Assembly: GCF_014467075.1 (NCBI RefSeq)
Contig: NZ_AP023027.1
Location: 1,015,001-1,079,000 of the forward strand
Reading direction: 5' to 3'
Origin: Anaerostipes caccae L1-92
Lineage (GTDB): Bacteria > Bacillota > Clostridia > Lachnospirales > Lachnospiraceae
Length of the DNA: 64,000 nt
This document shows, piece by piece, positions 51,969 through 63,782 of this stretch. Made by a program: the position numbers and the translations under genes. Numbering within the stretch: the first letter of the stretch is position 1; the number at the start of each line of letters is the position of its first letter. Under the pieces are notes generated by a model. It was not told the origin of the DNA. It searched no databases and saw only the letters and a program-made list of their open reading frames with translations.

Positions 51969-52142
51969 TTTCCCAACCACAAATATTTAAACAGCATGGC
52001 AAACCCCCAGAAAATGGCGGTTTACAGACGATTTGAAAGAAAAAACAGGAAAAATGAAGGTGGTTGGGAAAAAATAAAGGAAACGTTGATTTTATCGGGA
52101 AAACTGGCTATAATAAAAAATAGAAATGGCTTAAAAACGAGG
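51969..52142 (+). promoter_or_regulatory. CRISPR leader, copy 1 (relic locus)
   Basis: Matches the leader at 63012-63184 over its length, most strongly in the last 80 nt (for example AAACGTTGATTTTATC, GGAAAACTGG, AATGGCTTAAAA). It holds a promoter TTGATT (52086-52091), 17 bp, TATAAT (52109-52114), and an inverted repeat TTTCCCAACCAC (51969-51980)/GTGGTTGGGAAA (52060-52071) with 79 nt in between. Confidence 0.85.
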
Positions 52143-52238
52143 GATAAACAGTAACAAGAGTTGTATTGAAAATGGGTAGTGTGCTGGTCTATGGCAGTAA
52201 AGTTCTCAGATAAACATTAACAAAAGTTGTATTGTATA
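52143..52238 (+). CRISPR. Relic CRISPR array: two repeats, one spacer
   Basis: Repeat 52143-52172 matches the 30-nt consensus of the main array except its last base; a 36-nt spacer follows (52173-52208); the second repeat 52209-52238 is degenerate (CATTAACAAAAG for CAGTAACAAGAG, altered 3' end), as is usual for the leader-distal repeat. No cas genes flank it. Confidence 0.85.
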
Positions 52239-52376
52239 AAGATCTTCTTTCTATGTCCAGGAGACAGAAATTATAATTTCTGCCTTCTTTTTTTGCCTTT
52301 TGTTTACCCAGCTGCACCAGTCCACAAGCTGCCGTTTTTATGTTATGATAAAAGAGCAAAACACAAAGGAGGAGCT

Positions 52377-53738
52377 ATGAGATTTGGTTACGATATCCCG
52401 GATTCTTTTTGGAGCCTGTTCCGTTCTGTAAACCGGGATCATTACATAGAAGCGCTGCTGAAAATCAGTGAAGAATATGAATATAACAACTATTTTCTGA
52501 GCCGGGAGGTCTGTATTCAGGTCCTAAGCGACTGGAATGCGGACAAGCGCATCTGGCTTCAGCGGGAAGAGTTTGAATCAGAACTGGACGTACTGGAGAC
52601 TCCCCCAAACCGGATACTAAACTGGCTGATCCGGACCGGATGGCTGAAAAAACTGGATGACTTTTCTACGCTGACATCCAACATTGTCATTCCTGATTAC
52701 GCGGCAGTTTTCCTGGATGCTTTTGAACAGCTCGTGAATCCGCAGATGGAAGACACGGAGATTTATATCCAAAATGTATATGCAACACTGTTCTCCTTTC
52801 AAAACGATAAAAGAATCAACCTAGGGATGCTGAAAACAGCCCTGATCAATACAAAAAAACTGAACAAGGCACTTCAGGATCTGCTCCACAACATGGACAA
52901 ATTTTTCGGACGCCTGCTGAAACAGCAGTCTTACGGCGATGTCCTGGCGGAACATTTAGAAGGATATGTGGAAGAGATCGTCAAGAAAAAGTACCATATG
53001 CTAAAGACCAACGACAATTTCTATCTCTACAAAATGGATATTAAAAAATGTCTTCAGGAAATGTGGGAGGACGCAGAGTGGATCGAGAGAGTCCGGGCCA
53101 AGGCAAGAGCAGAGGGCAGGGATGAAAAGGAAGATGTGCTTGATATTCTGGATGCCATCGAGAGAGGTTTTGACGACATCGAGCACCGGATCGCTAACAT
53201 GGACAAAGAACATTCCAAATATGTGCGCGCCACAGTCACAAGGCTCAACTACATGCTCAGCGGCGAGGCAGATATGAAAGGAATGGTAGTCAGTCTTTTA
53301 AAGCACTTAGAAATCGACGAAAAGAGGGAAGAACGGCTTTCAAAAGTGGCGGAAAAAATGAACCTGTCACGTCTGGAAGTCCTGTCGGAAAAATCTCTTT
53401 ACAGAAGAAAGAAAAGGAGAGACTTTATCAGCCGGTTAGAGCCGGATGAAGATGTGCGGGAACTTACCAGGGAAGAAGTATTGAGACTCAATAAGATCCA
53501 TACACGTTACAGTAAAAAAGAAATCGAGGAGTTTCTGGAAAGCCATATGGAAGACGGATCCATGGAAATGAGAGATGTCAATATCGGCGACGATGAGTCG
53601 TTTGAAAAGCTGATCCTGGCCTATGACTACTGTACCAGGAAAAACAGCCGGTATCAGGTGATCGAGAGGGAAAATAAGATGCTGGAAAATGGAAAATACC
53701 GTTATCCGGATCTGTTGTTTGTGAGGAGAAAGTCATGA
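52377..53738 (+). CDS. jetA: Wadjet subunit JetA-like (MukF-like kleisin)
   Basis: 453 aa from ATG 52377 with ribosome site AAAGGAGGAG; the in-frame upstream part to 52227 is the CRISPR relic's flank. It starts FGYDIPDSFWSLFRSVNRDHYIEALLKI and is helical with a long charged central part and a C-terminal segment (SKKEIEEFLESHMEDGSMEMRDV). This matches the JetA of Wadjet systems carrying DUF5716-like proteins (I believe type III). In Wadjet, JetA bridges the JetC heads with JetB. First gene of a four-gene operon with overlapping stops and starts. Confidence 0.82.
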   Translation: MRFGYDIPDSFWSLFRSVNRDHYIEALLKISEEYEYNNYFLSREVCIQVLSDWNADKRIWLQREEFESELDVLETPPNRILNWLIRTGWLKKLDDFSTLTSNIVIPDYAAVFLDAFEQLVNPQMEDTEIYIQNVYATLFSFQNDKRINLGMLKTALINTKKLNKALQDLLHNMDKFFGRLLKQQSYGDVLAEHLEGYVEEIVKKKYHMLKTNDNFYLYKMDIKKCLQEMWEDAEWIERVRAKARAEGRDEKEDVLDILDAIERGFDDIEHRIANMDKEHSKYVRATVTRLNYMLSGEADMKGMVVSLLKHLEIDEKREERLSKVAEKMNLSRLEVLSEKSLYRRKKRRDFISRLEPDEDVRELTREEVLRLNKIHTRYSKKEIEEFLESHMEDGSMEMRDVNIGDDESFEKLILAYDYCTRKNSRYQVIERENKMLENGKYRYPDLLFVRRKS

Positions 53739-54391
53739 TTGAATACTATGAACAGCTGAGCGATGAGGAGAAGGATGATGTAAAGCGTGTCATCCAGATT
53801 TTGTTCCGGCAGACCTTTGTGCTGGAACGGAAATACGAAAAGAGGACCGGAAGATTTGCTTTCCAGAAGGATTACAGGATCTTAAATCAGCACCTGGAAT
53901 TTTTAAGGGAGTATTTTTCGATTGCCGGGCTGGAACTTCGGGATAACAGTCATATGGGAGTTTTTTATATCCAGGGGGAGACCGTCCTGGGAGAAAAGCT
54001 GCCCAGACTGGCTACTATTTATCTGCTGATCTTAAAGCTGATCTACGATGAGCAGATGGAAACAGCGTCTGCAAGCAGCTATGTGTATACGTCGCTGGGA
54101 GAAATCAATGAAAAGATCGGAGATTTTGCCTTGCTTAAGAACCTGTCTTCTGCGACAGAGATGAGGAAGACGATTTCTCTGCTCAAAAAATACCAGATTA
54201 TCGAGCCGATGGACGTACTCGAAGACCTTAATGAGGAGAGCCGCATGGTGGTGTATCCGTGTATCAACGCGGTTCTTCTCGGTGCTGATGTACAGAAATT
54301 GATAGAAACATTTACGGAGGAGGACGAACGTGGAGAAGAAGACGGAGAGCAAACAGGCATTCAAAGCACTATCGAAGATCTGTCTGAATAA
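53735..54391 (+). CDS. jetB: Wadjet subunit JetB (MukE-like, DUF4194)
   Basis: 218 aa, overlapping jetA by 4 nt. Tandem winged-helix protein, FQKDYRILNQHLEFLREYFSIAGLEL and LATIYLLILKLIYDEQ, with an acidic C-terminus. Binds the JetA kleisin. It overlaps jetC by 62 nt, an unusually long overlap. Confidence 0.85.
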   Translation: MIEYYEQLSDEEKDDVKRVIQILFRQTFVLERKYEKRTGRFAFQKDYRILNQHLEFLREYFSIAGLELRDNSHMGVFYIQGETVLGEKLPRLATIYLLILKLIYDEQMETASASSYVYTSLGEINEKIGDFALLKNLSSATEMRKTISLLKKYQIIEPMDVLEDLNEESRMVVYPCINAVLLGADVQKLIETFTEEDERGEEDGEQTGIQSTIEDLSE

Positions 54392-57300
54392 CTGGCATTA
54401 TATTGAACGGAAAGTGCTTTCTTTCAGTGAAGGGATCAATTTCTTTACCGGACATTCCGGCAGCGGAAAATCTACGGTCATCGACGCCCTTCAGATCGTT
54501 CTGTACGCCAACACGGACGGAAGGGGATTTTTCAACAAGGCGGCGGCCGATGACTCGGACCGGAGCCTGATCGAATATTTGAGAGGCATGATTTCGGTGG
54601 GAGACAATAATGAGGGAAAATATATCAGAAACCGAAATTTTTCTACAACGATCGTGCTGGAACTTGAGCAGACGGTTACCGGAGCAAAGGAGTGTGTCGG
54701 AGTCGTTTTTGACGTGGAGACTGCCACCAATGAGATTTCCAGGCTGTTTTTCTGGCATAAAGGAGGAATCCTTGAAAACCGCTACCGAAAAGAAGACCGT
54801 GCCATGGCAACAACAGAGGTGAGAGATTACATAAAGGAACATTTTCCGAAAGAAGAATTTTATTTCGGTTCCAGCAATGAGAGGTTTCGGAGGCAGCTCT
54901 ACGACATCTATCTGGGAGGACTGGACGCGGAGAAATTTCCGAGACTTTTCAAGCGGGCGATCCCGTTTAAAATGAATATTAAGCTGGAAGATTTTGTGCG
55001 GGAATACATCTGTATGGAACAGGATATCCAGATCGAAGATATGCAGGAAAGTGTTCTTCAGTACGGCAGGATGCGCAGGAAGATCGAAGATACGCTGAAG
55101 GAGATCGGCAGTTTAAAGCAGATAGGAACCGGTTACGACCGGTTTTCCAGGGCAGAGCAGGAGGTTCGGGTCTGTCAGTACCTGATGGAAAAGCTCGTAA
55201 TGCTCCAGCTGAAAGAACAGATCAGAGACCTGCACGAAAAAATAGAGAAGGCAGGGGAAGATAAGAAGACCCAGGAGAAGAACAGAAAGGAACTGTCTGG
55301 CCAGCTTGCAGATCTCGCAGAGGAATATGACCGTCTGGTAAAGCAGATCGCAAATAGCGGCTACGAGAATTTAAAAACAGAACTGCAGGGTGTCAATGAA
55401 CTCTTGGATCAGCTGCAAAAAAGCAGGGCCGCATGGCAGCAGACGTCCACAGGGCTGAGCCGGTGGGCAGAACTGGACGTGACACCGAATCAGACCATAT
55501 GGGATATTGAAAGCTTTTCCAAGGGAGATATCAGTCTCGGAGAACTGCGCAGACTCCGGCACAGTTTAAAGGAAATCCGGGAAGAAGTGGAAAACGACCG
55601 GCAGGATGCGGCCTCAGAACTGAGAAGGCTCAAGAAGCGGGAAAAGGAAATCGACGGGGAGCTGAAAGAACTGAAAAAAGGGAATAAGGCTTATCCCAGA
55701 GAACTGGAAAATGCCCGGTATGAGCTTCAGAACCGTTTGAGTTCTAAGTTCCAAGTAGCGGTAAAGGTACATATTCTCTCAGATCTTCTGGACATGAAGT
55801 CGGAGACATGGCATAAAGCCGTGGAAGGGTATTTAGGATCAAATAAACTTTCGCTGGTCGTGGAGCCGGATTATGCCAAGGCGGCCATGGAGATCTATGG
55901 GGAAATGGATGAAAAGCAGTTTTTCAGAGCCTCCATTTTAGACACAGAAAAGATCCTGAAAGAAAAGCCGTCCGTCATGGATCACGCACTGGCAGAGGAA
56001 GTGATTGCCAAGGAGCCGTATGTCAGAAATTTCGTGGACCTGCTTCTCGGAAGGGTGATCAAATGCCAAACCATTGAAGAACTGAGGAATCAGAGGACCG
56101 GAGTGACTCCTGACTGTCTGCTCTACAAGAATTTTCAGCTGAAACGGCTGAATCCGGCGGATTATACGAAGCGTTCCTATATCGGTGAGAGCAGTGTGAA
56201 ACAGAGAATCAGAGATCTGAAGGAAGAGTTCAAACAGCTTTCGGCCAAAAAAGAACCGTTTGCCAGGATGCTGGCAGAAGCGGAAGATATTTTGAGACTG
56301 GAAGCTCTGGGGCGTTCTGAGGAAGAATATATAGAACAGCAGGAAGCCTTAAAGAAAATAAGAGAGAAAACGGCGCTTAAAAGAGATCTTCAGGATCAGA
56401 TGATGAAGATGAAGGAAGAATCCATCGGTGAACTGGAAGAAAGACAGAGAGAGAATAAGAGGCTTCAGGCACAGAAACAGGAACTGTTAAATGAAGTTTC
56501 AAGAGCCGTCTGGAACAGGGAAAAACAGATCGAGGACTGGCAGAGGCTCTATGTTTCCGCAAACAGTGAGCTGACGGAACAGGAGAGAAGTTTTTGTCGC
56601 AGCGAAGAACTGGAAAAAGCCTTTGATGACTATATGCAGGGGCGGATGCCGTCAAATCTTGAAAGCCTTAAAAACGGGACATTCAGGAAGATCAAACAGG
56701 CGGAGAACAGCAGGGAAGAAGCTTACAGATCACTTGTAGAACTGCGCTCCGAATATTTGAGGGAGTATCCGAACCGGACATTCTCGCCGGCCATTGAGAC
56801 CAATGAGCCATATGAAGAGCTGCTGCAGAAGCTTGAATGTGACCATCTTGCGGATTATCAGGAGAGGGCAAGAGAACAGGCAAGGTCAGCGGCCGAGCAT
56901 TTTAAGGACGATTTTATATCCAAGATCAGGTATGCCATATTGGAAGCATATCAGAGAAGGGACGAATTAAACCGGATCATCAGCCGGCTGGACTTCGGAA
57001 AAGATAAGTATCAGTTCCGCATCACGAAAAACAAGGGCCCTGATGGTGTTTACTATCCGATGTTTATGGATGAATCGCTTCAGATCGATCCGTCCACTCT
57101 GGATGCATCCATGGATCACCAGATGAATCTGTTTTCCATGGAGCATGAAAACCGCTACGGAGAGGTCATGAGTGACCTGATCGATATTTTCATACCTCCG
57201 GAGAATGCATCCCCGGAAGAACTGGAAGAGGCCAAGCGGAACATGGAAAAATACGCGGATTACAGGACCTATCTGTCTTTCGATATGGAACAGATCGTGG

Positions 57301-57713
57301 AGGGGGAAGAAAAGCTGACCATCGGTCTTGGCAGGATGATCAAGAAAAATTCGGGAGGGGAAGGGCAGAATCCCCTCTATGTAGCCCTTTTGGCGAGCTT
57401 TGCCCAGGCCTACCGGATCAATCTGTCGCCAAAGTTAAGGAGAAGCCCTACGATCCGGCTGGTTGTCCTTGACGAAGCCTTTTCCAAGATGGATGCGGAG
57501 AAGGTAGCCAGCTGTATTGAACTGATCCGTGGACTCGGATTCCAGGCTATCATAAGCGCCACCAATGATAAGATACAGAATTATTTGGAAAACGTAGACA
57601 AGACCTTTGTCTATGCCAATCCGAATAAAAAAAGTATTTCTATACAGGAGTTTGAAAAACGGGAATTTGATCATCTGATGGAGGAAGCAGAGGATGAAGA
57701 AGGAACTGCTTAA
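54330..57713 (+). CDS. jetC: Wadjet SMC-like ATPase JetC
   Basis: 1127-aa SMC/MukB-like ATPase. Walker A GHSGSGKST (41-49), long coiled coils (about 275-345, 405-470, 625-770) broken by a hinge-like region, ABC signature SGGEG (1008-1012), Walker B VVLDEAF (Asp1048, Glu1049). The JetABC motor extrudes circular plasmid DNA until JetD cuts it. Starts with GTG 54330 behind GGAGGAGGA, inside jetB. Confidence 0.93.
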   Translation: MEKKTESKQAFKALSKICLNNWHYIERKVLSFSEGINFFTGHSGSGKSTVIDALQIVLYANTDGRGFFNKAAADDSDRSLIEYLRGMISVGDNNEGKYIRNRNFSTTIVLELEQTVTGAKECVGVVFDVETATNEISRLFFWHKGGILENRYRKEDRAMATTEVRDYIKEHFPKEEFYFGSSNERFRRQLYDIYLGGLDAEKFPRLFKRAIPFKMNIKLEDFVREYICMEQDIQIEDMQESVLQYGRMRRKIEDTLKEIGSLKQIGTGYDRFSRAEQEVRVCQYLMEKLVMLQLKEQIRDLHEKIEKAGEDKKTQEKNRKELSGQLADLAEEYDRLVKQIANSGYENLKTELQGVNELLDQLQKSRAAWQQTSTGLSRWAELDVTPNQTIWDIESFSKGDISLGELRRLRHSLKEIREEVENDRQDAASELRRLKKREKEIDGELKELKKGNKAYPRELENARYELQNRLSSKFQVAVKVHILSDLLDMKSETWHKAVEGYLGSNKLSLVVEPDYAKAAMEIYGEMDEKQFFRASILDTEKILKEKPSVMDHALAEEVIAKEPYVRNFVDLLLGRVIKCQTIEELRNQRTGVTPDCLLYKNFQLKRLNPADYTKRSYIGESSVKQRIRDLKEEFKQLSAKKEPFARMLAEAEDILRLEALGRSEEEYIEQQEALKKIREKTALKRDLQDQMMKMKEESIGELEERQRENKRLQAQKQELLNEVSRAVWNREKQIEDWQRLYVSANSELTEQERSFCRSEELEKAFDDYMQGRMPSNLESLKNGTFRKIKQAENSREEAYRSLVELRSEYLREYPNRTFSPAIETNEPYEELLQKLECDHLADYQERAREQARSAAEHFKDDFISKIRYAILEAYQRRDELNRIISRLDFGKDKYQFRITKNKGPDGVYYPMFMDESLQIDPSTLDASMDHQMNLFSMEHENRYGEVMSDLIDIFIPPENASPEELEEAKRNMEKYADYRTYLSFDMEQIVEGEEKLTIGLGRMIKKNSGGEGQNPLYVALLASFAQAYRINLSPKLRRSPTIRLVVLDEAFSKMDAEKVASCIELIRGLGFQAIISATNDKIQNYLENVDKTFVYANPNKKSISIQEFEKREFDHLMEEAEDEEGTA

Positions 57714-58905
57714 AATGATCATCGAAAAGACTGAGAAGTCTGCATCGGACTGGAAGAAGGGAGCGGAAGGAAACCGTTCCTTTCTGGTTCACCAGGAACT
57801 ATATGATCAGATCGGAAAAACAGAGTTTATAAATGCAGCCAGAGAACTTGAGTGTCAGGGCCTGTTGAAAATTGAGTGGGAAGCCGTAGGGGTGGATATA
57901 CGAAGGATACGCTATTCTTTAAAGGATCTTGCGCTCATATATGAAATGTCCGGTATCCGGCCGAAGTTTCAGGTGATGGAAGAAAATATGGCGGCTGTTG
58001 AAAACCTTCTTCATTCGGTCAAAGGACTGTGGATAAAAGATTATTTAAGGGACTGTATGAAACGGTTAGAGCAGGGCAAAATCCCGTCAGAATTTTCAAA
58101 ACGGGAAGAGCTGTTTCGATGTCTTAAAGGGATCGATGGATTGAAGGAGCCGCTGTATAAAAGGGTTTTCAGCAAATATTGTCTGGGCGATTCCAAGCTT
58201 TTTGAGAAAAAACTGGAAAGCACTGTGCTATCTATAGCCAGAAAATATCATACAGATATAGAGGAAGGTATGGATCATACGCAGGTCCTTTCCCAGCTTT
58301 TCATTGAAGAATATTCACAGGAGCTTGCGTTAAAAGGGCCGCTGCGAATTTCAGTGGACGGACAGGAAATAAATTTGGGACAATTTCGTTACGGCGCAGT
58401 CTTAAATTCACAGATGCTGGTCCATGCAAAACCCCAGTCGGGTCAAAACATAAAGAGAATCCTGACCATAGAAAATAAAGCAAACTATATGGCAGCACCC
58501 TATGATGAAGAAGCCGTCATCATTTACAGCCATGGGTTTTTTACACCGAAAGAAAGGGAGTTTCTCATCAATCTGCGGGAGAGTCTTTGTGCAGAGACAG
58601 AATGCTTCCATTCTGGAGATTTGGATTACGGAGGTATCCTGATCTACCGGTATATCAAACAAAAAATATTTCCGGATCTCATGCCCTGTCAAATGGATGA
58701 GGAAATCTATCATAAATATGAAAAGTATGCGGTGGAAATGGAACCTGAGACTTTAAAAAAATTAAAAAAGTTGAGGATGGACGAAATTCCTGAACTAATG
58801 GAGATGAAAGAACTTTTGGTCAGAGAAGGAAAAGGTCTGGAACAGGAAAGTTTTTTACTGGCATCCGGTGAACCACAGGAAAATGCGGAACTTAGATGCC
58901 GGTAA
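57694..58905 (+). CDS. jetD: Wadjet nuclease JetD (DUF2220, TOPRIM)
   Basis: 403 aa. N-terminal winged-helix/arm part and C-terminal TOPRIM domain: IENKAN (Glu260) and GDLDYGG (Asp309, Asp311) supply the metal-binding acidic residues of topoisomerase VI-like cleavage. Cuts plasmids trapped by JetABC. Overlaps jetC by 20 nt. All four active-site sets in the operon are intact, so the system should be functional. Confidence 0.9.
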   Translation: MKKELLKMIIEKTEKSASDWKKGAEGNRSFLVHQELYDQIGKTEFINAARELECQGLLKIEWEAVGVDIRRIRYSLKDLALIYEMSGIRPKFQVMEENMAAVENLLHSVKGLWIKDYLRDCMKRLEQGKIPSEFSKREELFRCLKGIDGLKEPLYKRVFSKYCLGDSKLFEKKLESTVLSIARKYHTDIEEGMDHTQVLSQLFIEEYSQELALKGPLRISVDGQEINLGQFRYGAVLNSQMLVHAKPQSGQNIKRILTIENKANYMAAPYDEEAVIIYSHGFFTPKEREFLINLRESLCAETECFHSGDLDYGGILIYRYIKQKIFPDLMPCQMDEEIYHKYEKYAVEMEPETLKKLKKLRMDEIPELMEMKELLVREGKGLEQESFLLASGEPQENAELRCR

Positions 58906-58928
58906 ATATAAGAAACCGATCTTAGCCC

Positions 58929-59342
58929 TTAGCCGGATATTCCGAAAATAAGAGAATAGAGACTTGCTTCTTTGAGTTCCTTTTCTATGGCTGCTTCCAG
59001 TTGTAATAGGCCTTCTTTGATATGGCACGGTTCATCGCAGAGAGGCGTTCTGGTACACTCATATCCTTCTTCAAAACAGGCATTGATGCCAAAGCCGCTG
59101 CCAAGACCCTGCATCAGCTGAAAGAGGCTTATGTCGTGCAGATCTGCCGTCAGGCGGCATCCGCCTTCTGCTCCTCTGGTGATGATGATCCATCCGGCTG
59201 TCTCCAGTTTTTTAATAATGCGGTAAGCAAACTGTTTCGGTGTCGCTTCCAGAGAGCATATTTCTTCTATTGAGCGTTTCTTTCCGTCGCTTAAAGCCCT
59301 TAAAATACGCAGGGCATAATCGGTTTCTCTTGAAATCAGCAT
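58929..59342 (-). CDS. Rrf2-family regulator with C-terminal cysteines
   Basis: 137 aa: winged helix with DYALRILRALSDG and TPKQFAYRIIKKLETAGWI, then cysteines 89, 96, 102 and 106 (CFEEGYECTRTPLCDEPC), enough to hold a redox-sensing Fe-S cluster as in IscR/NsrR relatives. Lies downstream of, and on the same strand as, a flavodiiron/acyl-CoA dehydrogenase pair it may control. Promoter on the minus strand: TTGACA, 17 bp, TATATT. Confidence 0.85.
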   Translation of the reverse strand: MLISRETDYALRILRALSDGKKRSIEEICSLEATPKQFAYRIIKKLETAGWIIITRGAEGGCRLTADLHDISLFQLMQGLGSGFGINACFEEGYECTRTPLCDEPCHIKEGLLQLEAAIEKELKEASLYSLIFGISG

Positions 59343-59368
59343 GTGTCTCTCCCTCCTTATCTTAGTGA

Positions 59369-59398
59369 AAATATACCAAACTAAAAAATACCTGTCAA
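59369..59398 (-). promoter_or_regulatory. Promoter of rrf2 gene
   Basis: On the minus strand TTGACA, a 17-bp spacer GGTATTTTTTAGTTTGG, and TATATT, about 30 nt upstream of the start codon. The spacer repeats GGTAT, which could be part of an autoregulatory site. Confidence 0.6.
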
Positions 59399-59421
59399 TG
59401 GAACCCGGAAAATTCTTTCAG

Positions 59422-59460
59422 AGAAAAACCAGGCCCGCCAATATTAAGTGCGGACCTGGC
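59422..59460 (-). terminator. Terminator of flavodiiron operon
   Basis: On the minus strand GCCAGGTCCGC pairs with GCGGGCCTGG and is followed by TTTTTCTC. Separates the flavodiiron gene from the rrf2 gene. Confidence 0.8.
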
Positions 59461-59480
59461 TTCTTTGGGTTAGAACATTT

Positions 59481-60683
59481 TTACTGTTTCATGGATTCTA
59501 TGAGACCGTCAGCTAATGTATCCATATCGGAACCGTTGTCTTCTGTCATAGAAGACATCAGTGTTACCTGCTCATCCAGGATATCCATCTCTCTCATATC
59601 ATCAATAAATTCTCTCATCAGTGAACCGGATTTGCAGGCCCAGGAACCATTTTCAATGATGGCAAAAGTTCTTTTCTGGAGATTCAGTGCCTTCATATCC
59701 ATCAGATAATTATGCATTAATGGATAGATGCCCAAATTATAAGTGACAGAAGCCAGAACGATGTGGCTTAAACGGAATGTCTCGGAGATCAGCTGGGATA
59801 CATGGGTATTTGACACATCGTATAAGACTACATTTGTCATACCCTTTTCACACAGTTTTGCAGCCAGATTCTGTGCAGCGGCTTCGGTGTTGCCGTACAT
59901 GGAAGCGTAGACGATCATCACGCCCTGTTCTTCCGGCTCATACCGGCTCCATTTATTATATTTATCAAGGAAATAACCAAGGTCTGTGCGCCATACCGGA
60001 CCATGCAGAGGACAGATCGTTTTGATATCTATGGTTCCTGCTTTCTTTAACAGGGATTGTACATGAGGACCATATTTGCCAACGATATTTGTATAATATC
60101 TTCTGGCATCATCAATCCAGTCTCTGTCAAAGTTTACTTCATCATTGAACAGTTTGCCGTCCAGGGCGCCGAAGGAACCAAATGCATCGGCGGCAAAAAG
60201 AGTGCCGTCCGTTATGTCAAAGGATACCATGGCTTCCGGCCAATGAACCATTGGAGCATAGACAAAGGTTACTTCATGTTTTCCGAAAGACTGTACGTCT
60301 CCTTCCTCAACCTCGATCATATGTCCGTCCACATCGAATCCAAACTGGCGCATGAGCATAAAGGCCTTTTCTGTACTGATGATCTGTACTTCCGGGTGGC
60401 GCAGAAGCACTTCTTCAATAGAAGCCCCGTGGTCCGGTTCCATGTGGTTGATCACCATATAGTCCAAGGGTCTCCCGTCCAGAACATATTCGATATTCTC
60501 TAGGAACTGCCGTCCGATGGACCAGTCGACCGTGTCAAATAATACGGTCTTTTCATCCAGAAGCAGATAGGAGTTATAGGAAACCCCTCTCGGAATCGGA
60601 TGGATATTTTCAAACAGGGCCAGGCGGTGGTCATTGCCGCCAACCCAATATAAATCTTCGGTTACTTTTCTAACACAATGCAT
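59481..60683 (-). CDS. fprA: Flavodiiron protein (FprA)
   Basis: 400-aa class A flavodiiron protein reducing O2 (and/or NO) to protect anaerobes. MBL-like diiron domain: H80-M-E82-P-D84-H85, then VHWPEAM, DAFGSFG and CPLHGPVW complete the diiron ligands. Flavodoxin domain from about 255 (MIVYASMYGNTEAAAQNLA). No fused rubredoxin; its donor is probably the rubredoxin domain of the upstream gene, 42 nt away. Ribosome site AAAGGAGG. Confidence 0.95.
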   Translation of the reverse strand: MHCVRKVTEDLYWVGGNDHRLALFENIHPIPRGVSYNSYLLLDEKTVLFDTVDWSIGRQFLENIEYVLDGRPLDYMVINHMEPDHGASIEEVLLRHPEVQIISTEKAFMLMRQFGFDVDGHMIEVEEGDVQSFGKHEVTFVYAPMVHWPEAMVSFDITDGTLFAADAFGSFGALDGKLFNDEVNFDRDWIDDARRYYTNIVGKYGPHVQSLLKKAGTIDIKTICPLHGPVWRTDLGYFLDKYNKWSRYEPEEQGVMIVYASMYGNTEAAAQNLAAKLCEKGMTNVVLYDVSNTHVSQLISETFRLSHIVLASVTYNLGIYPLMHNYLMDMKALNLQKRTFAIIENGSWACKSGSLMREFIDDMREMDILDEQVTLMSSMTEDNGSDMDTLADGLIESMKQ

Positions 60684-60725
60684 GGATCATACCTCCTTTA
60701 ATCAGTTGTCCAAATGCAGGAACGT

Positions 60726-62624
60726 TTAAACTTCAATAAACATATCTTTTGCTTCGCCGCAGTCTGGACAGATCCATTCTTCCGGCAGTTTTTCAAACAG
60801 GGTTCCAGGATCAATCTCTCCTTCGGGATCTCCGTTCGCCGGGTCGTATTCGTATCCGCATCCGTTGCAGACATAACGTTTCCAGGTCGGTACGGTCTTT
60901 TTTGGTTTTGCACGTTTCATCTTTTTCATCGGCGGAGCCGGTTGTTTTGGTTCTCCGTTATCAAGCGCTTGGGTCAGCAGAGGAAGAATTTCTTCCACAT
61001 CTCCGACAATGCCGTAGTCTGCATTTTTAAAGATCGGAGCATTTGCATTTGTATTAATTGCTACGATGGTTGTGGCGTCTTTGATTCCTTTTAAATGCTG
61101 TCCTGCCCCGGAAATGCCGCAGGCGATGTACAGGTTTCCGTTAAATTTCTGTCCGGACATTCCCACATACCGGTTGATTGGCACATATTTTAAAGTTTCT
61201 GCTACCGGACGGGAAGAACCGATGGCAGCTCCTGCCTGAACGGCTAAATCTTCAATCAGTTTCATATTTTCTTTCGGACCGATGCCTTTTCCTGCGCTGA
61301 CGACTCTGTCTGCTTTTGAAATCGGGGTGTCTAAGTCAATGCCGACCGTAAAATCATATCCGTCTTTTTTGAGGGCTTCTACAACAGCGTCCACTCGTTC
61401 TTCGGCGGAACCGTCTTTTAAGATCATTTTTTTGCGGACACCGGTCTCAGCACCTTTTTTTCTGGCTGGCTGATTTTTCGGCATCTTTCCAATGATATGA
61501 GAAGCGATGACGACTCTCTGGATTTCATTGGTGCCCTCATAGATGGTACAGATTTTTGCATCTCTGTAGGCACGTTCCACATCCATGCCTTTTAAGTAGC
61601 CGGTTCCACCAAAGATCTGAAGTGCATCGTTGACAACTTCCAGACAGATATCGGAAGTATACTGTTTTGCCATGGCAGATTCCAGACCGTATGGCTCATG
61701 ATTTTCTTTCAGATCAGCGGCGCTGTACACGAGCAGGCGGGCAGTTCTCAATTTGGTCGCCATATCCGCAAGCTTAAATGCGATAGCCTGCTGCTGGCAG
61801 ATCGGACGACCGAACTGTTCTCTTTCTTTGGAGTATTCCAGAGCATTTTCATATGCACCCTGCGCAATGCCGAGAGCCTGTGCAGCGATGCCGATTCGTC
61901 CTCCGTCCAATGTGGACATGGCGATTTTAAAGCCTTCTCCTTCTTTTCCGAGAAGATTTTCTTTCGGTACTTTTACGTCATTGAAGATCAGTTCGGCAGT
62001 GGAAGAAGAACGGATTCCCATTTTGTCGTAATGGTCGCCGAAGGTGAAGCCTTCCCAGCCCTTTTCAACGATAAATGCGCTGATGCCATGAGTTCCGATA
62101 TCCGGGGTAGTGACTGCAAACACTACATAAGTATCCGCCTTGTCGGCATTGGTGATAAAGATCTTGCCTCCGTTTAACACATAATGGTCGCCTTCAAGGA
62201 CCGCGGTGGTCTCAGTGCCTCCCGCATCGCTGCCTGCATTTTGTTCCGTAAGGCCAAATGCACCGAGCTTTTCACCGGAAGCAAGAGGAACGAGATATTT
62301 TTGTTTTTGCTCTTCAGTTCCGAAAGCGAAGATCGGATAACTTCCGAGAGAGACGTGTGCAGATAAAATAACGCCTGTGCCGCCGTCAACTCTGGAAAGT
62401 TCCTCTACAGCAATGGCATAGCTCAAGACATCTGATCCTGCGCCTCCGTATTCTTTCGGATAAGGCAGTCCCATCATGCCCATTTTGGCAAACTTTTCAA
62501 TGGCTTCGGTCGGAAATTCATTTTCTTTGTCCAAGAGGAAGGTGAGTGGTTTTACTTCGGTTTCTGCAAATTCCCTGACTTTCGCACGCAGGGCTTCATG
62601 AGCTTCGGTTGTTTGAAATAACAT
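60726..62624 (-). CDS. Acyl-CoA dehydrogenase-EtfA(C-terminal)-rubredoxin fusion
   Basis: 632 aa from ATG 62624 (AAAGGAGG upstream); an in-frame extension to 62711 is not used. Residues 1-380: acyl-CoA dehydrogenase with catalytic Glu in [10 protein letters not shown]. About 395-560: FAD-binding domain of electron-transfer-flavoprotein alpha ([31 protein letters not shown]). Residues 581-632: rubredoxin with paired CxxC motifs (VCNGCG, ICPDCG). A short-circuit electron path acyl-CoA to FAD to rubredoxin to the flavodiiron protein is inferred. The EtfA N-terminal and EtfB parts are missing, so it is not a standard Bcd-Etf. Confidence 0.92.
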
Positions 62625-62751
62625 ATAGAGCCTCCTTTGATTTAAATTTTTGTGAGGAAAACACCGTAATGAATGCCTTGCTGAAAGGCTCTTTAAAGAG
62701 TGTGATCTCACGATAAGGTATTTAGAATACTATGATTGAAATATAAAAAAT

Positions 62752-62780
62752 ATAAACTTGATTAAGTTGGTAAAGTATAA
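62752..62780. repeat. 29-bp direct repeat 1 with dyad (possible operator)
   Basis: ATAAACTTGATTAAGTT then GGTAAAGTATAA. Repeated at 62829-62857 with 27 of 29 bases the same, 77 bp apart. Contains the dyad AACTT-N4-AAGTT. Located 130-230 bp upstream of the acyl-CoA dehydrogenase fusion gene; candidate binding site for the nearby Rrf2 regulator. Confidence 0.75.
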
Positions 62781-62828
62781 GTTGTTTCCAGTATATACCT
62801 GAGATTGGCAGAAGTAAATAGGGTTGGG

Positions 62829-62857
62829 ATAAACTTGATTAAGTTTGTGAAGTATAA
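62829..62857. repeat. 29-bp direct repeat 2 with dyad
   Basis: Second copy of the 62752-62780 repeat (differences at two positions). Same dyad AACTT-N4-AAGTT. Confidence 0.75.
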
Positions 62858-62896
62858 CGAAAAAAAGAGAAAATAACTGTGAGTATTGACAGTAGC

Positions 62897-62955
62897 ATTT
62901 TCTGCATGATTTCCGTTCGGCTCTTAGAATGCCTCACTCCAATCATGCAGAAAAA
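62897..62955. repeat. Hairpin element, type 1, copy E
   Basis: Arms ATTTTCTGCATGATT (62897-62911) and AATCATGCAGAAAAA (62941-62955), 14 of 15 paired, loop of 29 nt almost identical to copy A. Compared with copy A the stem has matched changes (ACAT to GCAT region with the complement changed too). Followed directly by a type 2 element. Confidence 0.85.
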
Positions 62956-62959
62956 CTAC

Positions 62960-63006
62960 ACCGTATTTCATACCCTTCGGGTGGCGCGCTCTGCGCGATA
63001 AGGTAT
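62960..63006 (+). repeat. Hairpin element, type 2, single copy
   Basis: 47-nt copy ACCGTATTTCATACCC...GATAAGGTAT; CGCGC-TCT-GCGCG and ACCC-TTC-GGGT hairpins. It ends 5 nt before the CRISPR leader's inverted repeat, so the element and the array adjoin. Confidence 0.85.
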
Positions 63007-63011
63007 ACTGA

Positions 63012-63184
63012 TTTTCCAACCGATAAAATTGATAATTACATACAAACCGCAGAGGATAGCCATTTGAAGGGGTATTGGAGAAAAATGTGAAAAAATTGAT
63101 GACGGTTGGGAAATATTTAGAGAAACGTTGATTTTATCAGGAAAACTGGATATAATGAAATGGAAGAATGGCTTAAAAGCGTTG
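63012..63184 (+). promoter_or_regulatory. CRISPR leader, copy 2 (active array)
   Basis: Contains inverted repeat TTTTCCAACCG (63012-63022)/CGGTTGGGAAA (63103-63113), 80 nt apart, and a promoter TTGATT (63128-63133), 17 bp, TATAAT (63151-63156). All these landmarks are found at the same spacing in the relic leader at 51969-52142. Confidence 0.88.
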
Positions 63185-63782
63185 GATAAACAGTAACAAG
63201 AGTTGTATTGAAATTCTGAATTAACGGTGGCCACGTTGGTAACATCCTGATAAACAGTAACAAGAGTTGTATTGAAATTCCAAACCGCCGTCGTCCATCC
63301 GTGACGCACCATGATAAACAGTAACAAGAGTTGTATTGAAATTTCGAGGAGTCACTTTTTTCCCCGTAAGAGTAGAAAGATAAACAGTAACAAGAGTTGT
63401 ATTGAAATTTTTTGGAGTAATTGAAATCTTGGCCAGCCACAGCGATAAACAGTAACAAGAGTTGTATTGAAATTCTGAACCCGGAATCTTTATTTCCCCT
63501 GTGAGAGTAGATAAACAGTAACAAGAGTTGTATTGAAATTCACTTTAGAGATTTAGTTAAAAAAGGAGTATAAGATAAACAGTAACAAGAGTTGTATTGA
63601 AATATTAAGCCATCAATCCAATACTGCGGCTGAACGCCGGATAAACAGTAACAAGAGTTGTATTGAAATAATTGGATTTGTTTTGCCCAAGATATTTGTT
63701 TTTCGATAAACAGTAACAAGAGTTGTATTGAAATTTGATTGCAAGATCAAACCGTTTCATTACAGCCAGATAAACAGTAACA
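63185..63782 (+). CRISPR. CRISPR array, nine full repeats plus a truncated one, nine spacers
   Basis: 30-nt repeat beginning GATAAACAGTAACAAG and ending GTATTGAAAT. Full repeats start at 63185, 63249, 63313, 63379, 63444, 63510, 63574, 63640 and 63705; a truncated repeat of 14 nt is at 63769-63782. Spacers are 34-36 nt. The nine full repeats are identical. Repeat length, sequence ending and spacer size fit a clostridial type I-B system (inference). Leader is on the left. No cas gene is present in the window. Confidence 0.97.

Follow-up and report, generated by a model that had tools for sequence, protein, structure and literature searches.

A conserved inverted motif pair in CRISPR leaders of Anaerostipes caccae follows one Cas1b clade and is a candidate docking site for the type I-B spacer integrase

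Two CRISPR leaders lie in the stretch of the Anaerostipes caccae L1-92 chromosome analysed here (the window, 64,000 nucleotides at positions 1015001-1079000 of a one-contig genome of 3.59 Mb, labelled G000), and in both of them the arms of a long-range inverted repeat are found 5' of a promoter-like element and of the 30-nucleotide repeat GATAAACAGTAACAAGAGTTGTATTGAAAT. Window features are all on the forward strand and are numbered from the first letter of the window. In leader 1, the repeat search returned a distal arm TTTCCCAACCAC at 51969-51980, with the core TTTCCCA, and a proximal arm GTGGTTGGGAAA at 52060-52071, whose TGG is at -78 relative to the first repeat; the arms are 12 nucleotides long, 100% complementary and separated by 79 nucleotides. 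A promoter-like TTGATT-17-TATAAT element can be read 3' of both arms, at 52086-52114 (hexamers at 52086-52091 and 52109-52114), and array 1 (52143-52238) is a relic of two degenerate repeats, the first with one change (52143-52172) and the second at 52209-52238, on either side of a single spacer. Leader 2 is built in the same way. Its arms, ATTTTCCAACCG (63011-63022, core TTTTCCA) and CGGTTGGGAAAT (63103-63114, TGG again at -78), were returned by the same search as 12 nucleotides long, 92% complementary (one T-G mismatch) and 80 nucleotides apart, and the promoter-like element, likewise read in the sequence, is at 63128-63156 (63128-63133 and 63151-63156). Array 2 (63185-63782) has regular repeat-spacer spacing, with nine full repeats (63185-63734) and a truncated one at its far end.

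The window leaders are two of the ten that we found in this genome, whose own cas operon lies at ~2.63-2.64 Mb, where it adjoins an array of the same repeat class (2641612-2642037) and type III-B genes. Cas6, Cas5b, Cas3, Cas4, Cas1b and Cas2 of this operon score above an NCBIfam cut-off, a Cas7-like match stays below its cut-off, and the presumed cas8b, which has no family match, is named by its place only. As these I-B cas genes adjoin an array of the same repeat class in the same genome, we assign the leaders to type I-B. The proximal arm sequence GGTTGGGAAA occurs 19 times in the 3.59 Mb, 16 of them in leaders, while its backward control has 2 matches. A second cas1 gene (369.5 kb) has two arrays nearby, at 361.4 and 370.9 kb, and neither of them has the motif within 260 nucleotides on either side, even with one mismatch allowed.

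Further leaders in the genus were sought with a model that starts just downstream of the proximal arm and takes in the whole of the first repeat, so that neither arm was part of it. The model matches three of 11 Anaerostipes genomes and yields 24 leaders (10 in G000, 7 in G005 and 7 in G006). Exact copies of arm 1, TTTCCCAACC, are present in 21 of the 24 and exact copies of arm 2 likewise in 21, with both in 18; the remaining copies of arm 1 have one mismatch each, and those of arm 2 are two with one mismatch and one decayed copy (L045). With up to one mismatch, therefore, arm 1 is present in 24/24 leaders and arm 2 in 23/24. The inverted repeat and promoter that an earlier note on this DNA had reported in both window leaders, with arms 79 or 80 nucleotides apart, are present as stated, and the arms recur in the genus leaders more often than chance would allow. 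The start of arm 2 is -81 in all of these leaders but one (L039, -82); that of arm 1 varies from -173 to -176, with a single leader at -182. Among 397 genomes of the family, the model matched four, including G000, and all seven leaders of three other Lachnospiraceae genera have the inverted motif TTTNCCA...TGGNAAA, six by rule and one (L190) by eye; in L187 the rule had an additional match within the array, which we took for chance. The upstream arm, whose loss from related leaders the earlier note had named as evidence against it, is hence mostly kept, with one array of G000, discussed below, as an exception.

A class-wide sample indicates how far the motif extends. In 393 Clostridia genomes, the Cas1 model TIGR03641 had a match at E values up to 1e-40 in 125 and over its cut-off in 72. 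Regions were fetched around 77 cas1 genes over the cut-off, with both G000 genes and those in G591 and G612 omitted, and arrays were found by script and oriented by their repeat end, giving 85 with an upstream stretch of 260 nucleotides. Thirty of these arrays have the A. caccae repeat class, all beside a Cas1 of the A. caccae clade; removal of three with long N runs left 27, and removal of four whose upstream stretch was itself array left 23 clade leaders, with two clade loci (L286 and L289) yielding none. The same filters reduced 55 arrays of other classes to 49. The Cas1 genes split cleanly, with 23 besides the A. caccae gene at 54-78% identity to it and the others at most at 46%. The clade, with 24 rows drawn from 12 families of Clostridia, has a support of 100/100 when set against six selected outgroups. 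The inverted TTTNCCA...TGGNAAA is present in 22 of the 23 leaders beside this Cas1b clade and in none of the 49 beside other Cas1b; nor does any of these 49 have TGGNA at -77 to -79. Both situations are met within one genome (G508), where L254 has TTTTCCA/TGGAAAA and L272, beside a Cas1 outside the clade, has a different, one-mismatch pair around TTTGCA/TGCAAA.

The proximal arm is held at a nearly constant distance from the array. Although positions from -86 to -72 were allowed, TGG falls at -79 to -77 from the first repeat in the 22 class leaders that carry the motif (mean -78.6, sd 0.64), whereas the position of the best -10 box, which scored at least 5 in 18 of the 22 in a crude search from -55 to -20, has an sd of 8.1. 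The reference point of the arm is therefore the repeat and not the promoter. The distance between the two cores is looser: 52-53 nucleotides in three class leaders, 77-80 in three, 88-91 in 13 and 100-102 in three, and in the genus 88-90 in 23 leaders and 97 in one.

We also asked how the two arms change relative to each other. The earlier note had seen co-variation in the flanking bases, CCAC/GTGG in one window leader and CCG/CGG in the other. These bases are as described, but they do not support co-variation: without the decayed L045, 23 genus leaders remain, of which 9 have a complementary first flanking pair (7.6 after shuffling) and 4 a complementary second one (5.2). The presumed orthologues of the window leaders in G005 change on one side only (CCAC with TTGG in L038, CCG with TGG in L031), and in the paralogue L021 CCT faces CGG; the core is nearly invariant within the genus. 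An alignment of related leaders, which the note had proposed, places the paired change elsewhere, at the N of TTTNCCA/TGGNAAA and between lineages. In all 22 class leaders the two N bases are complementary (12 T-A, 7 A-T, 3 C-G), with a shuffled mean of 9.2 and none of 200000 shuffles as high; when arms are picked by position alone, the result is still 22/22, with a single candidate pair in 20 of the 22 leaders. Position 2 is complementary in 20 of the 22, in two pair types. The three pair types are intermingled on the Cas1 tree, where the starred branches force at least three changes for A-T and at least three for C-G, a count in which two rows without a leader have a label of their own that may raise the A-T figure. 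Pooling 31 leaders (22 from the class, 6 from other genera and 3 chosen from the genus) gives complementary N in 28, against a shuffled mean of 10.7; positions 2, 8, 11 and 12 also exceed their shuffles (p 0.001-0.025), and positions 3, 5, 6 and 7 are invariant.

Based on these observations, we propose that the two arms probably serve as DNA half-sites in inverted orientation, through which the type I-B spacer integrase docks on the leader. What points to the integrase is the fixed distance to the insertion site, the restriction to one Cas1 clade, the difference between arrays according to their Cas1 within one cell (G000 and G508) and the inverted order of the arms. In the mechanism we envisage, folding of the leader, whether through the integrase itself or through a protein of the HU type, would bring the distal arm (at ~-174) beside the proximal one. 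The two-fold-symmetric Cas1-Cas2 complex, with Cas4, would contact one arm with each half, so that the first Cas1 active site would receive the junction of leader and repeat; the arms may be needed for spacer acquisition. Since both arms would meet the same surface, a shift in the specificity of that surface would change both together, and we infer that the arms tend to match as sites of the same reader rather than through a need to pair with each other. IHF is not a likely folding agent, if folding occurs, as a search of G000 with the models for both IHF subunits found the same single HU-family gene with each, below both cut-offs.

Several points weigh against this reading. In the clade sample, the arms are absent from one leader, that of L290-14636 (a second array), and in G000 from array L015 (2961843-2962002, the exception mentioned above), whose repeats belong to this class but which is preceded by neither such a leader nor arms and gives only partial matches to the model. 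The N bases are not complementary in three of the seven leaders from other Lachnospiraceae genera (L187, L189 and L192, with A-G, C-T and A-G; in L190 they are A-T, read by eye), nor in three of the 24 genus leaders, including window leader 2 and the decayed L045. From these failures it follows that matching arms are favoured but not required. Positions 1, 9, 10 and 13 have no excess of pairing in the pooled 31, and kinship of the rows makes all shuffles too favourable, so that the counts on the tree are the better guide. In an unguided inverted-repeat search, few single leaders exceed their own shuffles, and at the arm positions only L258, L261 and one leader of L285 reach p<=0.05 in the clade; the strength of the arm signal is its shared place and not its significance in a single leader. 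The spacings resemble steps of a helical turn, but phasing does not reach significance (Rayleigh p ~0.17-0.48 over 5-6 presumed independent shifts), and the spacing of 52-53 nucleotides is about half a turn out of phase. Finally, another Cas protein could be the reader, since the whole cas locus, and not only Cas1, may share the history of the arms.

A different possibility is that a separate DNA-bending or architectural host protein, a stand-in for IHF in Firmicutes, binds both arms, with the integrase reading only the bent shape. The lack of a detected IHF pair in G000 would leave room for such a protein, and in Sulfolobus a leader-distal motif bound by Csa3a is described as promoting acquisition (PMC9456107). 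A host factor should, however, serve all arrays of the cell, and the arrays near the other Cas1 have no such motif in G000 and a different one in G508; the motif is also rare outside leaders in G000 (3 of the 19 occurrences). We consider this explanation unlikely. The arms might instead bind a transcription regulator of array expression, for example by looping over the promoter, as they both lie 5' of a sigma-70-like promoter and paired inverted sites are, as a general matter, typical of regulators. Against this stands the anchoring of the proximal arm to the repeat and not to the best -10 box across the clade, and the list of open reading frames has no extra gene between cas6 and cas2 of the A. 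caccae operon (regulators elsewhere were not searched). A regulatory role is accordingly improbable.

The earlier note had suggested that the inverted repeat acts in adaptation or expression as a DNA cruciform, a protein site or an RNA stem. A conserved long-range inverted repeat that is very likely functional in the leader, and most likely in adaptation, survives from this; a stem closing a loop of about 80 nucleotides is unlikely. Complementary arms and a paired change at N between lineages are what a stem predicts, but both arms are 5' of the promoter, N is unpaired in the three leaders of other genera named above, and the proximal arm stays at a set spacing from the repeat. The sequence 5' of the distal arm is unconserved by eye in the genus leaders, except among near duplicates, so no promoter suggests itself for a transcript across both arms. 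The flanking bases, moreover, do not co-vary within the genus, a 10-bp stem closing a loop of 80-90 nucleotides is generally a poor cruciform, and the window has no Rfam match at the gathering threshold, all of which makes pairing of the arms very improbable. That the repeat is simply inherited similarity without function among duplicated leaders is scarcely credible, for although the ten G000 leaders are paralogues, the arms persist where Cas1 identity falls to as little as 54%, and the Cas1 tree implies several joint changes of the two.

If the integrase does dock on the arms, the arm pair would give the one cas locus, at ~2.63-2.64 Mb, access to leaders scattered around the chromosome. The ten G000 leaders comprise five on the forward strand at 0.95-1.61 Mb and five on the reverse strand at 2.18-3.06 Mb; with dnaA at base 125, all ten run with replication, provided that the terminus is somewhere in the interval 1.61-2.18 Mb. 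In G006, five forward leaders are at 0.89-1.04 Mb and two reverse ones at 0.26 and 3.04 Mb, and there, with the origin not located, the rule on replication direction may fail. The array at 2631977-2632180 (L048), beside the type III-B genes of G000, has a different repeat and the same leader arms, as has a similar array in G005 (L041). One adaptation module may therefore serve both the I-B arrays and the III-B-adjacent array. The leader L045, at 3057073-3057260, is an orphan: its distal arm is intact, but the proximal arm has decayed and no more than a truncated repeat is left.

We speculate, with less confidence than for docking itself, that integrase and array share a specificity code in the form of the arm pair. 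The integrase would read this dyad without IHF, the dyad would evolve along with Cas1, its two arms changing in step, and in a cell with several systems it would determine which arrays take spacers from which adaptation module. In A. caccae, such a code would assign ten dispersed leaders, one of them beside III-B genes and one orphaned, to a single I-B module. A dyad that follows one clade and keeps a constant spacing from the site of insertion is a concrete candidate site in an IHF-less type I-B system. In practice, the rule TTTNCCA...TGGNAAA with TGG at ~-78 finds and orients leaders of the clade, even the array-less L045, and it can be used to attribute orphan arrays to an adaptation module.

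Several features of the locus stand apart from the arms. The flanks of leader 2 (before 63011 and after 63782) share stretches with those of leader L013 (2180.6 kb in G000), and as both upstream and downstream flanks are shared, the duplicated unit appears to be larger than the leader. Between the two window leaders, PADLOC detects a complete type I Wadjet system, JetA-JetB-JetC-JetD (52377-58905), and Jet genes are also seen by eye between paired leaders in the open reading frame lists of G005 and G006. The idea that paired leaders mobilise defence cargo is unsupported, as the same lists, again by eye, hold largely the same genes in these intervals. Pieces of two spacers had no exact match in viral contigs. 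A hairpin AACCGC...GCGGTT between the arms was dropped, being visible by eye in some G000 leaders and not in others, and a 17-base pattern scan of genome contigs, which had many matches in unrelated organisms among the matches listed, was not used as evidence, nor was a parallel viral scan. Nearer the array, the motif GAATGGCT at ~-19 is kept in 9 of the 22 class leaders (7 or 8 of its 8 letters), and GAATGGC is present in many genus leaders.

The earlier note did not recognise this leader architecture, but inverted repeat motifs have been reported in leaders of C. difficile type I-B and of type I-F (PMC8406132, PMC12259127). In C. difficile, 'two conserved inverted repeat motifs' are described upstream of every array (PMC8406132). 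Like the leaders studied here, those of C. difficile thus belong to a type I-B system, serve dispersed arrays and contain a long-range inverted repeat. For a direct comparison, we picked C. difficile-type arrays in viral contigs by a repeat that we take to be that of C. difficile. Among 60 distinct stretches upstream of these arrays, 30 have TTGCAGTG/CACTGCAA or a close variant, 91 nucleotides apart in 30/30, and we assume that these are the published motifs; of the other 30, a pattern search found neither arm in 29 and only the distal one in the last, and we take most of these as non-leader or decayed contexts. The C. difficile-type arms, TTTGCAGTG/CACTGCAAA, are unrelated to TTTCCCAACC/GGTTGGGAAA of A. 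caccae, their proximal 8-mer lies at -61 to -63 and not, like TGG in the class leaders, at -77 to -79, and relatives with repeats similar to that of C. difficile (L276, L283 and L304) fall outside the A. caccae Cas1 clade. In most C. difficile-type contigs (L200-L253), ACTGCAAA starts at ~-60, one base after the proximal 8-mer, and in relatives (L272, L276, L283, L304 and L317) at -82 to -85, a shift of ~22-25 nucleotides, near two helical turns.

Surveys by Santiago-Frangos in 2021 and Buyukyoruk in 2025 are said to have catalogued subtype- and taxon-specific leader motifs and their phase. In type I-F, the C2-symmetric integrase Cas1-2/3 uses Cas2 to contact inverted repeat motifs in a leader folded with IHF (PMC12259127). 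The leaders studied here likewise have inverted motifs at a fixed place, and a folded leader met by a two-fold-symmetric integrase may serve as a working analogy for the docking proposed above; type I-F is, however, another subtype, in which IHF folds the leader, whereas we found no IHF pair here. The Sulfolobus type I-A leader differs in that its leader-distal motif (-143 to -94) is described as a single site read by Csa3a and not as an inverted pair (PMC9456107). Searches of open-licence full texts, made without the motif letters, turned up neither the sequence of the arms nor the clade rule nor the paired changes. Overall, since the C. difficile I-B leaders have inverted motifs as well, the architecture of a leader dyad is known in kind, and what our sequence comparisons describe in A. 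caccae and its relatives is a real, clade-wide leader dyad, which we read as a variant of that architecture with an arm sequence of its own.

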